The notes under the pieces are model-generated. The model saw nothing but the letters and a program-made list of their open reading frames with translations. It was not told the DNA's origin and ran no database searches. Both the position numbers and the translations under genes were made by a program. Shown here piece after piece: positions 14,322-27,428 of a stretch of 64,000 nt of DNA. The stretch spans positions 1,116,001 through 1,180,000 of the forward strand of contig NZ_JAAOZB010000001.1 in the NCBI RefSeq assembly GCF_011761265.1, read 5' to 3'. Source of the stretch: Microbacterium halimionae. Its GTDB lineage: Bacteria > Actinomycetota > Actinomycetes > Actinomycetales > Microbacteriaceae. How positions within the stretch are numbered: position 1 is the first letter of the stretch; every line of letters starts with the position of its first letter.

Positions 14322-15335
14322 TTGAAGTACTTCGTCACGGGTGTTGCGGGCTTTATCGGGTTCCATCTCGCCCGCGTTTTGCTAGACGCTGGGCATGAAG
14401 TTCGTGGGTTTGACGCTCTAACCCCTTACTACGACCCGTCACTGAAAGTGGCACGCTTAGCTCGGCTGGAAGGATCGTCAAGTTTTTCGTTCGTCCAGTC
14501 AATGCTCGAGGACAGAGACGCACTTGATAGAAGCATTGATGAGTTCGAGCCTGAGATAATTGTTCACTTGGCGGCTCAAGCGGGGGTGCGCTACAGCATC
14601 GACCATCCAGATACCTATGTGCAGTCTAATTTGGTCGGTACATTCAATATCTTGGAGGCGGCGCGCAGGGTCAAGCCGCGACACTTGCTTTTTGCGTCTA
14701 CGTCATCGGTATATGGCGGGAACGAGAAGACTCCATTTAGCGAAGTCGATTCGTCTCACCAACCCGTTTCTCTCTACGCAGCAACTAAGAAAGCTGGCGA
14801 GGTGATGAGTCATTCATACTCACATCTCTTCGACATTCCTACCACGTGCTTTCGTTTTTTCACGGTTTATGGACCGTGGGGGCGCCCTGACATGGCGCTG
14901 TTTAAGTTCGTAGACCGCATCGAGCGCGCGGAGCCGATTGAAGTTTATGGCAATGGAGAAATGAGCCGTGATTTCACCTATATCGAGGATTTAGTCCATG
15001 CGATCAAGCTTCTCGCAGACGTCGTCCCGTCGAAGGGCGCTCCAGCTGGCGGGAGCAGTAGTATTGATTCGTTGTCGACCGTCGCGCCGTGGCGTGTCGT
15101 GAATATTGCGGGCGGGCGGCCCGTAGGGCTGATGGCCTTCGTGGAAGCCGTCGAACGTAGCCTCGGCCGCGAAGCAGTCAAGATTATGCTTCCGATGCAA
15201 CCTGGTGACGTGCGCACCACGAGTGCTGATCCTCGGCTGCTAAAAATGCTGACCGGCTACGAACCATCTACGCCAGTTGGTGAAGGAGTGGCCAGATTTG
15301 TCGAGTGGTATCGAGAGTATCGCCGTGCCGGATAA
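14322..15335 (+). CDS. NAD-dependent sugar epimerase, UDP-glucuronate 4-epimerase type
   Basis: A 337-residue extended SDR. GVAGFIGFHLA binds NAD near residue 7, STSSVYGGN near 127 carries the active-site serines and YAATKKAGE near 151 the Tyr/Lys pair. DALTPYYDPSLKVARL after the first strand is typical of UDP-glucuronate 4-epimerases, which make UDP-galacturonate. Together with the Ugd gene on the other strand this would provide uronic acid donors. The start is a TTG with TAGGAG seven bases upstream. It opens a tightly packed operon running to 19505. Confidence 0.85.
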   Translation: MKYFVTGVAGFIGFHLARVLLDAGHEVRGFDALTPYYDPSLKVARLARLEGSSSFSFVQSMLEDRDALDRSIDEFEPEIIVHLAAQAGVRYSIDHPDTYVQSNLVGTFNILEAARRVKPRHLLFASTSSVYGGNEKTPFSEVDSSHQPVSLYAATKKAGEVMSHSYSHLFDIPTTCFRFFTVYGPWGRPDMALFKFVDRIERAEPIEVYGNGEMSRDFTYIEDLVHAIKLLADVVPSKGAPAGGSSSIDSLSTVAPWRVVNIAGGRPVGLMAFVEAVERSLGREAVKIMLPMQPGDVRTTSADPRLLKMLTGYEPSTPVGEGVARFVEWYREYRRAG

Positions 15336-16110
15336 AAGTTCTGGCGTCCCAACTGTCGTTGTAGCTGGACTAGCTACCGCTCGCGTGACGGGCGATCAGC
15401 TCGCCGAGATGATGGTTGAAGACTGTCTTGCGGCGCGCGGCGCAATTGGTACGCGGCCCAAGGTTGTATTCTCATCTAACGGACAAGGGATCGCACTCGC
15501 GGGGGCTGACGCCGAATTTTCAGCGGCGATGTACGAAGCCGACATTATTCACGCGGATGGCATGCCAGTAGTGCTCGCGTCGAAGCTTACTGGAACGCCC
15601 TTGCCGGAGCGCATTGCGACCACGGACTTCTTTCACAACGCGGCGATTGCCGCGGTTCGCAGCGGTCTAAGCTTCTTCGTTCTGGGGGCCACAGAGAAGC
15701 AGAATAGTGCAGCGGTTGATGCGATGGTGAGGCTCTATCCCTCATTGAAAATCGCGGGAAGACACCACGGATATATTGGCCCCGAGGACGACGAGCGCGT
15801 AAGCGAAATGATTGTCGAGAGCGGTGCGGACGTGGTCTGGGTCGCGCTGGGGAAGCCCCGTCAAGAATACTGGTGCGTTCGAAACAGAGAGCGGTTGACG
15901 GGCGTTGGGTGGATCAAGACGTGTGGCGGCTTGTACGCGTTTCTCGCAGGTGACGTTCGACGTGCTCCTACATGGATGCAACGACTTGGCCTCGAATGGT
16001 TGTACAGAGCACTCGAAGACCCGCGAAGACTGGGCTGGCGATATTTAACTACGAATCCGCGCGCTCTATATCGGCTCATCCGCTACACGAATAGATCGAC
16101 GGAAAAATGA
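15325..16110 (+). CDS. WecG/TagA/CpsF-family glycosyltransferase
   Basis: A protein of about 261 residues matching the WecG/TagA/CpsF family throughout: NGQGIALAGADAEF, the acidic DIIHADGMPVVLASKLTG, the RIATTDFF motif, GATEKQNSAAVDAM and the VALGKPRQEYW block. Family members transfer N-acetylmannosamine(uronate) or related sugars from UDP donors onto lipid-linked acceptors at the cytoplasmic face. The GTG at 15325 overlaps the epimerase gene by 11 bp; an in-frame TTG at 15277 would give 277 residues. It precedes MurB, raising the possibility of an unusual amino sugar donor. Confidence 0.87.
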   Translation: MPDKSSGVPTVVVAGLATARVTGDQLAEMMVEDCLAARGAIGTRPKVVFSSNGQGIALAGADAEFSAAMYEADIIHADGMPVVLASKLTGTPLPERIATTDFFHNAAIAAVRSGLSFFVLGATEKQNSAAVDAMVRLYPSLKIAGRHHGYIGPEDDERVSEMIVESGADVVWVALGKPRQEYWCVRNRERLTGVGWIKTCGGLYAFLAGDVRRAPTWMQRLGLEWLYRALEDPRRLGWRYLTTNPRALYRLIRYTNRSTEK

Positions 16111-25764: not shown

Positions 25765-25931
25765 GACGCCTCTCGGTGTGGGTTCTCGATCATCCTGCCA
25801 TATGCGGTGTTCGCAACCTGTTTCGCACCCGTCCGTCACACAGTTTTTGCTGACCGCTGCTAGGCTCGCGCGCAGACGCCATCAGTATTAATCGCGTCGA
25901 CTTTCTCAAGAAGAGAGGCTCGAGGTTCACA

Positions 25932-27428
25932 GTGAGTTCGAAGGTGGAAAAGTCCTTCGATGGTGCGTCGGCGAGGACTACCCCGGCCCGGCAGAGCTGG
26001 CGCAAAGGATATGGCCGACGACTATTCATTACTGACCTTCTTGTGCTCGTATGGGTTGTATACGGTAGTCAGATTGCTTGGTTTGGCAACGGAAGCGCTC
26101 AAGTCGCCATGAGCTATGACATTCGTATCACTGCTCCGTCATATTGGGTTGCTTCTGCTGTATTGATCCTTCTCTGGATGCTTGCACTCGCCGCAAATGA
26201 CACTCGTAGCGACCGCATTTTCGGCTCCGGAAACGCTGAGTACGTGCGTGTGACGATGGCAAGCCTCAATCTTTTCGGAATCGTTGCGATCGTTGCATTC
26301 CTCGCCAAGATAGATATCGCACGTGGGTACCTCCTGATCGCGCTGCCCGCGGGCATTTTGATGCTTCTCGTCTCTCGTTGGTTGTGGCGCCAGTGGCTCG
26401 TGGCGAAGCGGCTCGGTGGGAATTACAGTGCGCGCGTACTTCTGGTCGGGTCAAGTGCTTCAGTGGCCGCGATCGCTCGCGAGCTTGGGCGCTCGCGTAG
26501 CTCGGGTTATGTCGTGGTTGGGGCGTGCATGCCTCGCGAGCAGCTCTCTTCGACGGTGCCGGGTACCGACATTCCTGTGCTTGGTTCGGTCGATGACGTG
26601 CGCGATGCGATGACTGCTGTGGGCGCTGACACCGTCGCCGTCACAAGCACCGATGATCTTCCGCCCAACAAGGTCAAGGAAATCTCGTGGGGGCTCGAGG
26701 CAGGCCGACAGCACCTCGTGATTGCGCCGAGCATGCTCGACATTGCTGGGCCGCGCATTCACACGCGACCAGTCGCAGGCCTTCCGCTCATCCATGTGGA
26801 GACGCCTCGCTTCTCGGCTGGTCAGCGGTTCTTGAAGCGTGCCGTCGATCTCGTAGCCAGCGTGCTCGGCGTGATTGTGCTGTCGCCTCTTCTGCTCGTG
26901 CTCACTGTGCTGGTGTCGGCGACGAGCATGGGCCCCGTGTTCTTCATGCAGACCCGCGTTGGATATCACGGCCGCGAGTTCAAGATGATCAAGTTCCGTT
27001 CGATGGTCGTCAACGCTGAGGAACTACTCGCTGACCTTCGAGCGAAGCAGCGTGATTCTGGCAACGAAGTGCTGTTCAAGATGAAAGACGATCCGCGCAT
27101 CACCGGGATCGGTCGATTCATGCGCAAGTACAGCCTTGATGAGTTGCCTCAACTGTTCAACGTAATTGGTGGGTCGATGTCGTTGGTTGGGCCGCGGCCG
27201 CCATTGCCAAGTGAGGTCGCGCTGTATGCGCAGCACGTACACCGTCGCTTTTTGGCGAAGCCAGGGATCACCGGGCTGTGGCAGGTGAGTGGGCGCTCGT
27301 CACTCTCGTGGGAAGAATCCGTGCGCCTTGACCTCTCGTACGTCGAGAACTGGAGCATGATGGGCGACCTCGTCATCATTGGGAAGACAGCTAAAGCTGC
27401 ACTCGCTCCCGGCGACACCGCGCACTGA
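25932..27428 (+). CDS. polyprenyl-phosphate sugar-1-phosphate transferase (priming enzyme, WbaP/CpsE type)
   Basis: A 498-residue protein with four to five N-terminal membrane helices (about residues 35-160), a nucleotide-binding-like middle region (VLLVGSSASVAAIAREL near 165) and a C-terminal bacterial sugar transferase domain from about 290, with the re-entrant helix DLVASVLGVIVLSPLLLVLT, KFRSMVVNAEE, DDPRITGIGRFMRKYSLDELPQLFNV and GPRPP. It starts repeat-unit synthesis by moving a sugar-1-phosphate from a UDP-sugar onto undecaprenyl phosphate. The start is a GTG at 25932. It is divergent from the Wzz/kinase gene. Confidence 0.93.
   Translation: MSSKVEKSFDGASARTTPARQSWRKGYGRRLFITDLLVLVWVVYGSQIAWFGNGSAQVAMSYDIRITAPSYWVASAVLILLWMLALAANDTRSDRIFGSGNAEYVRVTMASLNLFGIVAIVAFLAKIDIARGYLLIALPAGILMLLVSRWLWRQWLVAKRLGGNYSARVLLVGSSASVAAIARELGRSRSSGYVVVGACMPREQLSSTVPGTDIPVLGSVDDVRDAMTAVGADTVAVTSTDDLPPNKVKEISWGLEAGRQHLVIAPSMLDIAGPRIHTRPVAGLPLIHVETPRFSAGQRFLKRAVDLVASVLGVIVLSPLLLVLTVLVSATSMGPVFFMQTRVGYHGREFKMIKFRSMVVNAEELLADLRAKQRDSGNEVLFKMKDDPRITGIGRFMRKYSLDELPQLFNVIGGSMSLVGPRPPLPSEVALYAQHVHRRFLAKPGITGLWQVSGRSSLSWEESVRLDLSYVENWSMMGDLVIIGKTAKAALAPGDTAH

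Follow-up and report, generated by a model that had tools for sequence, protein, structure and literature searches.

What is a MurA-MurB pair doing inside a polysaccharide locus? The question is raised by a stretch of Microbacterium halimionae DNA (the window: 64,000 nucleotides, positions 1116001-1180000 of contig C1) from a genome of 2.94 Mb in 3 contigs that is 99.9% complete. A Wzx/Wzy polysaccharide locus encoding ten proteins spans ~14.3-27.4 kb of the window. Genes for an epimerase, a WecG/TagA transferase, MurB, Wzx and a GT2 glycosyltransferase come first on the plus strand, followed by MurA and a hexapeptide acyltransferase (minus), Wzy (plus), a Wzz/BY-kinase (minus) and a glycosylphosphotransferase (plus). 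A sequence-only reading of the locus had proposed that the pair provides uridine diphosphate (UDP)-N-acetylmuramic acid (UDP-MurNAc) or a related sugar for the surface polymer. Of this proposal, the lactyl-ether sugar stands as the best reading; that it is exactly MurNAc is less sure, the acceptor pocket of MurA being altered. We conclude that the locus pair, distinct from the housekeeping copies, probably makes a UDP-activated lactyl-ether sugar, predicted to be UDP-MurNAc or closely related to it, and that this sugar would serve the surface polysaccharide presumably assembled by the adjacent Wzx/Wzy genes.

Both genes are intact and closely joined to their neighbours. The ATG of MurB (16107-17141, plus strand; predicted UDP-enolpyruvyl-sugar reductase) overlaps the WecG stop (ATGA, 16107-16110), and the MurB stop shares nucleotides with an in-frame ATG (17138) of Wzx. 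The upstream acyltransferase frame runs 8 nucleotides past the start of MurA (19555-20817, minus strand; predicted enolpyruvyl transferase on a UDP-sugar). The proposed coupling of MurB between the WecG/TagA-type gene and Wzx, and of MurA to the acyltransferase, is thus borne out. MurB scored above the NF010480 (278.5 bits vs 259) and TIGR00179 (180.7 vs 144.5) cut-offs and has the domains PF01565 and PF02873. MurA matched PF00275 (245 bits, E=1.6e-72) and passed the cut-off of subfamily PRK09369 (387.1 vs 297). The catalytic residues had been said to be kept; C119 of MurA (E. coli C115) is present as stated, and the MurB residues are Ser237 and Glu312, not 'near 235 and 311'. Window MurA also holds Lys22, Arg120, Asp305, Arg371 and Arg397 (E. 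coli numbering), which together with the Cys we take to be the catalytic list, and window MurB holds Arg187 and Arg224. Domain and family profiles detected no Mur ligase (MurC-F) or FtsW among the ten locus proteins, as the sequence-only reading had noted. The locus genes have a G+C content of 0.51-0.59, lower than the 0.63 of the flanks, a difference that fits imported DNA.

The locus MurA and MurB are extra copies. A second MurA lies at C2:696110-697378 and is 34% identical to the locus MurA; its neighbours are presumably leuC, leuD and an acyltransferase gene. A second MurB was matched at C2:9192-9686 within a 380-amino-acid frame (29% identical over 160 residues), so the objection that these might be the only murA and murB genes of the genome falls away. 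Locus-type MurB is rare in the Microbacteriaceae: among 299 genomes of the family it was found in 2 (E<=1e-30), and MurA (E<=1e-70) was found in the same 2. In the second of these, G016, MurA and MurB are adjacent and are followed by relatives of the window Wzx (52%), GT2 (53%) and Wzz/BY-kinase (43%).

To what extent is this arrangement shared outside the family? In protein searches, the best 120 of 3907 MurA relatives were 71-79% identical (own protein excepted) and included Stenotrophomonas, Marinobacter, Mesorhizobium and Vibrio; the best 120 of 1127 MurB relatives were 46-63% identical (own excepted) and included Luteimonas, Microbacterium, Pelagibacterium and Aeromicrobium. A scan of a species collection (84,980 genomes) with the MurA alignment recovered at least 76 loci with MurAs of 56-73% identity, two of them cut by contig ends. 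This number is a lower bound because the scan used two exact peptide patterns. The loci span Pseudomonadota, Bacteroidota, Actinomycetota, Balneolota, Verrucomicrobiota, Armatimonadota, Acidobacteriota, Thermodesulfobacteriota and Bacillota, and include one archaeon, Methanosarcina spelaei. In a plasmid search, 7/10 matches were 58-71% identical, 6 of those 7 on Rhizobium or Agrobacterium replicons.

Neighbours were counted with profiles built on the loci, the GT2 and GT4 glycosyltransferase families being scored above 200 bits. Within 6 kb of MurA, MurB was present in 62 of the 76 loci, Wzx in 62 and a CysE/WcaB-like acyltransferase in 39. Relatives of the window GT2 (18456-19505) were found at this distance in 25/76 loci and one GT4 family in 29/76; the two alternate, occurring together in 0/76 and singly in 54/76. 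When only the 46 loci flanked by 6 kb or more in each direction are counted, 40 had MurB, 41 Wzx, 30 the acyltransferase and 36 GT2 or GT4. The longest MurA and MurB frames frequently overlap or abut. The expected co-occurrence of murA, murB and Wzx is therefore recurrent, whereas that of WecG is not: a WecG-family gene lies within 11 kb in 8/76 loci by profile and in 5/76 by tblastn. We therefore rejected the WecG-type enzyme as the general transferase for the sugar; in this strain it is a possible one.

The linkage of MurA to MurB was compared with that of housekeeping genes in 36 of the 76 loci (35 genomes). All 34 bacterial genomes among the 35 tested had a second MurA, here called housekeeping, with 30-39% identity to that of the window. 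MurB lay within 10 kb of 27/36 locus MurAs vs 0/34 housekeeping MurAs, for which the nearest MurB was 22.7 kb away and the two genes shared a contig in 11/34. The locus MurAs also form a lineage of their own. A tree of 72 rows was built with 41 of the 81 locus MurAs and 30 others (28 housekeeping MurAs, the own second copy and a match from G345 that is probably a contaminant, see below; no E. coli row). The 41 locus MurAs make up one side of a branch with 99/94 support, and the 30 other MurAs fall on another (100/99), so that the phylogenetic placement called for in the sequence-only reading sets the locus MurA apart from the housekeeping enzymes. The window MurA is sister to that of Microbacterium dauci (97/78), within a clade (100/98) whose 12 other rows are Pseudomonadota, suggesting transfer from Pseudomonadota.

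These results bear on the idea that peptidoglycan synthesis draws on the pair as a spare or fosfomycin-tolerant source of precursor, its place in a polysaccharide locus being accidental. Both proteins are near genuine MurA and MurB in family scores, as this idea would have it. The separate MurA clade and the same neighbourhood across phyla speak against it, as does the occurrence of the pair in Methanosarcina, without MurC over the cut-off, in a genus described as lacking peptidoglycan (PMC4243693, in the portion consulted). A role in fosfomycin resistance was discarded on the target Cys, which is kept in 79/79 locus MurAs. We consider a peptidoglycan supply extremely improbable and ruled out the spare copy on phylogeny, neighbourhood and archaeal occurrence.

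The archaeal genomes bear on the same point. Among 30 genomes of the genus of M. spelaei, a MurA match (E<=1e-20) was found in 6, five of them belonging to the locus clade. The five Methanosarcina MurAs are 83-100% identical to the M. spelaei protein, and four lie on contigs as long as 4.5-4.9 Mb, making contamination less likely. A MurA match of 40% on G345:C167 (L183) was not counted as archaeal, because this 9-kb contig, which holds a MurC over the cut-off too, is probably a bacterial contaminant. Each of the five genomes has one MurA (E<=1e-20) and one MurB (E<=1e-10), the MurB overlapping the MurA, and MurC over the cut-off was detected in 0/5. Because these are the sole detected MurA and MurB and no MurC passed the cut-off, a peptidoglycan role is very unlikely in these five genomes. 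The pair is surrounded by Wzx, GT4-type and other glycan genes, one or two epimerases and a UDP-sugar dehydrogenase, some of these names having been assigned by reading. In 3/5 genomes a full-length hexapeptide acyltransferase lies between MurB and Wzx; it scored 172 bits against the profile from bacterial loci and is 41% identical to that of the window over 101 residues.

A draw of 392 genomes of the archaeal phylum yielded this MurA (E<=1e-40) in 5, four of those Methanosarcina and G563 (58%). On G563:C38 (L187), MurA (6006-4744), MurB (4703-3849) and GT2 (3789-3133) lie in a row, all on the minus strand, beside an ABC exporter; the proteins of this genome look haloarchaeal, and the genome is fragmented and contamination is possible. 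Methanosarcina are described as having an aggregate polymer, methanochondroitin, made of N-acetylgalactosamine (GalNAc) and glucuronic acid (PMC4243693, in the portion consulted), and the main text of a pangenomic study of archaeal pseudomurein genes does not contain the whole words MurA or Methanosarcina (PMC11915815). The wider possibility is that a muramic-acid cassette crosses domains: peptidoglycan-free archaea (Methanosarcina and another genome of the phylum) would equip a surface glycan with a lactyl sugar of the muramic-acid type, by means of the very MurA-MurB-acyltransferase-Wzx module that travels between the coat loci of bacteria, its MurA having evolved a new acceptor pocket. We judge the chances of this wider proposal to be about even. 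Collectively, the extra pair, its separate phylogeny, the repeated Wzx-type linkage and the archaea with no other detected MurA or MurB make a lactyl-ether sugar for a surface polymer the best reading of the locus.

Which sugar receives the enolpyruvyl group is a finer question. Residues were compared in 79 locus MurAs by E. coli MurA numbering (the partial MurAs of L080 and L081 being excluded) with 31 other rows: 28 fetched housekeeping MurAs, the own second copy, E. coli and the G345 contaminant. K22, N23, D49, R91, C115, R120, H125, D305, D369 and R371 are kept in 79/79 locus MurAs and R397 in 78/79; S162 is kept in 79/79 and D123 in 77/79. Relative to housekeeping MurA, the clade has the fixed changes V161R, V163T, R232N and V327R (each 79/79), the near-fixed changes E188R (77/79), E329P (78/79) and P121K (68/79), and A185 to P, A186 to H and T304 to S (each 79/79). 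Positions 120-124, 160-163, 305 and 327 are, by the UniProt annotation, those that contact UDP-N-acetylglucosamine (UDP-GlcNAc), and V161R, V163T, V327R, P121K and others show that these contacts are not all unchanged. The simplest reading of these patterns is that the enolpyruvyl chemistry would be unchanged and the acceptor pocket re-tooled.

The MurA clade might therefore act on another UDP-sugar, such as UDP-GalNAc, UDP-N-acetylmannosamine or a 6-deoxy or uronic form, so that the lactyl-ether sugar of the coat differs from MurNAc. The seven changes V161R, V163T, E188R, R232N, V327R, E329P and P121K, at or next to acceptor-binding positions, would suit this. Residues N23, R120, S162, D305 and D123, which are UDP-GlcNAc or catalytic contacts, are among those kept, and none of the sugar-making genes accompanies MurA throughout: nucleotide-sugar dehydrogenases were found no further than 11 kb away in 28/76 loci, and in 19 of the 42 that are well covered. 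For the same reason UDP-uronate, hinted at by the added Arg residues, was not adopted as the acceptor. In loci that lack MurB, the housekeeping MurB would also need to reduce the product. Lactyl ethers on other sugars are known, for example 4-O-carboxyethyl-mannose in Salinivibrio (PMC8466920, in the portion consulted). We regard a different acceptor as possible but doubtful.

Several observations weigh against the main reading. The window MurA falls below the TIGR01072 murA equivalog cut-off (374.6 vs 392.7 bits) and is filed as a MurA-related subfamily; this shortfall and the fixed pocket changes mean that the acceptor is perhaps not UDP-GlcNAc. The MurA of G016 is strongly diverged (39% identity, tree branch of 3.21) and, on this low identity and very long branch, counts as a diverged relative and not as a plain clade member. 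Neither glycosyltransferase family lies within 6 kb in 22/76 loci. No MurB was found in M. acetivorans, one of 14 named control genomes, and the pair is therefore a variable trait that is not general in Methanosarcina. In the other two of the five Methanosarcina loci the acyltransferase seems to be decaying or frameshifted: behind MurB the match is split in two in L182 (8552-9080), and in M. spelaei (L082, 9394-9519) it covers 42 residues only. MurB is absent within 6 kb in 14/76 loci, a contig end explaining a few, and in 7/35 genomes the sole MurB lies outside the locus.

These last counts would be expected if MurA acted alone in part of the family, giving a polymer with an enolpyruvyl ether to which MurB is an optional later step. 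In 5 of the 14 MurB-less loci (L017, L020, L022, L030 and L055), MurA lies within 6 kb of GT2 with no MurB nearby. Two of these, L017 and L020, end within ~2 kb after MurA, the housekeeping MurB could serve the remaining MurB-less loci, and the majority with MurB close by includes the window itself. We think it improbable that MurA acts alone in part of the family. Marinobacter segnicrescens has two loci with this MurA (L013 and L027), one with MurB within 6 kb and the other without.

The MurB partners do not form one clade, which also weighs against the main reading. One main clade has 28 rows from Pseudomonadota, Actinomycetota and Methanosarcina (100/99) and another 14 rows from Bacteroidota and Acetobacterium (100/97); two rows are stray, and five housekeeping-type rows fall on the same side. 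The MurB of L045 and the housekeeping MurB of G330 (L116) were left out of the tree and counts. The split suggests that this MurA probably gained a MurB partner repeatedly, or else that MurB underwent strong divergence, and the pair, as judged from these trees, is not a unit that has evolved as one everywhere. E. coli Arg159, Ser229 and Glu325 correspond to window Arg187, Ser237 and Glu312 and are kept in 28, 28 and 27 of the 28 rows of the first clade, the remaining row having a gap in the Glu325 column. The position of E. coli K217 is Arg227 in the window and Lys in 26/28 and Arg in 2/28 rows of the same clade. At MurB Asn233 the residue is Asn in 28/28 housekeeping-type rows, Ser in 26/28 main-clade rows and Arg in 14/14 rows of the Bacteroidota clade; part of this difference may reflect type I vs type II MurB.

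How might the lactyl-ether sugar be made and used in M. halimionae? The established chemistry of the two families is enolpyruvyl transfer followed by reduction with reduced nicotinamide adenine dinucleotide phosphate (NADPH). Substrate, product, transferase and coat chemistry in the following scheme are predictions. MurA would move enolpyruvate from phosphoenolpyruvate to the 3-OH of a UDP-2-acetamido sugar, probably UDP-GlcNAc, and MurB would reduce the enol ether to a D-lactyl ether. The CysE/WcaB-like hexapeptide acyltransferase (20810-21709, minus strand; PF00132), a predicted sugar O-acetyltransferase that stayed below the cut-offs of both the EpsC and CysE models, would probably O-acetylate the sugar or the growing unit. 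A polyprenyl glycosylphosphotransferase (25932-27428, plus; PF02397 E=1.1e-66; TIGR03025 415.6 bits vs 295.55) is the predicted starter of the repeat unit, and the EpsE-like GT2 (18456-19505, plus; PF00535 E=5.6e-25), for which an ATG at 18519 may be the true start, is the best candidate for adding the lactyl sugar. The Wzx-type flippase (17138-18469, plus; open reading frame listed from 17102; PF01943 E=1.5e-9), whose start may be 17138 rather than 17102 in view of the overlap with the MurB stop, would flip the unit. The Wzy-type polymerase (21808-23196, plus; PF04932 Wzy_C E=1.1e-13) would then polymerise it under control of the Wzz regulator fused to BY-kinase (24400-25839, minus; PF02706; TIGR01007 168.8 bits vs 108.05), and the product is expected to be a negatively charged coat. 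By profile scores, the locus has all four hallmarks of a Wzx/Wzy system: glycosylphosphotransferase, flippase, polymerase and chain-length regulator.

The remaining locus genes are the NAD-dependent sugar-nucleotide epimerase/dehydratase (14322-15335, plus; PF01370 E=4.4e-57), which matched 0 NCBIfam models at cut-off among the 25 matches listed, and the WecG/TagA/CpsF family glycosyltransferase (15277-16110, plus; PF03808 E=4.1e-57; TIGR00696 122 bits vs 69). Just outside the locus, a Ugd-like nucleotide-sugar dehydrogenase (12364-13674, minus) scored 612 bits against a profile built from dehydrogenases of related loci, the window copy included, and may supply uronic acid. Elsewhere in the window, a 2489-residue protein (45898-53367, plus), encoded upstream of ABC transporter genes, combines GH43 with concanavalin-like and bacterial Ig-like domains and is probably a large secreted glycan-degrading enzyme. 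A 465-residue protein (8717-10114, minus) has, by eye, a C-terminal HNH-like motif as in many actinobacterial HNH proteins. A repeat scan gave a single two-copy 21-nucleotide repeat, and promoter (5 vs 6.1 expected) and terminator (21 vs 15.1 expected, standard deviation 4.6) scans gave nothing of use, as did the repeat.

Set beside known systems, the pair shares with peptidoglycan MurA and MurB its Pfam families (PF00275; PF01565 and PF02873), catalytic residues and expected reaction order. It differs from them in its own MurA clade, its altered pocket, its Wzx, glycosyltransferase and acyltransferase neighbours, the lack of a detected Mur ligase among the ten locus proteins and, in five Methanosarcina genomes, the lack of any other detected MurA or MurB. 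The glycosylphosphotransferase, Wzx, Wzy, Wzz/BY-kinase and glycosyltransferases are common to Wzx/Wzy exopolysaccharide loci; the dedicated MurA-MurB pair is extra here. Pyruvate substitutions have been reviewed, with MurA covered for peptidoglycan alongside NikO, the uridine monophosphate enolpyruvyl transferase of nikkomycin biosynthesis, which like the locus MurA is a MurA relative outside peptidoglycan (PMC6801904, in the portion consulted). The window MurA is not of the NikO type, scoring 282.3 bits to the best solved MurA (6q03) vs 129.1 to NikO (4fqd). NikO is not known to have a MurB partner.

Muramic acid in capsules is already known chemically. The capsule of Vibrio vulnificus ATCC 27562 is reported to contain MurNAc; a number of its locus proteins reportedly resemble counterparts from Gram-positive bacteria and archaea, and horizontal transfer was proposed (PMC7247339, in the portion consulted). 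MurNAc has also been reported in the lipooligosaccharide of Psychrobacter arcticus 273-4, with muramic acid cited for the O-chains of Yersinia ruckeri and Proteus penneri (PMC4515632, likewise). Like the proposed coat, these glycans have muramic acid outside peptidoglycan; they are chemical structures for which the consulted portions of the sources name no murAB genes, whereas the locus described here is known from genes alone. Among the matches listed, MurAs 75-86% identical to the Vibrio fluvialis member occur in other Vibrio and Psychrobacter strains. Among the open-licence papers listed, titles and abstract beginnings gave no description of a murA-murB pair dedicated to polysaccharide loci.

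Muramic acid counts as a hallmark of peptidoglycan and is used to trace bacterial biomass. If our reading is true, a mobile gene pair that makes muramic acid or a close relative for coats, archaea included, would make it a less dependable marker. Work on how lactyl ethers, a scattered group of coat decorations, are made would also gain a genetic starting point, with the gene pair predicting which strains carry such coats.

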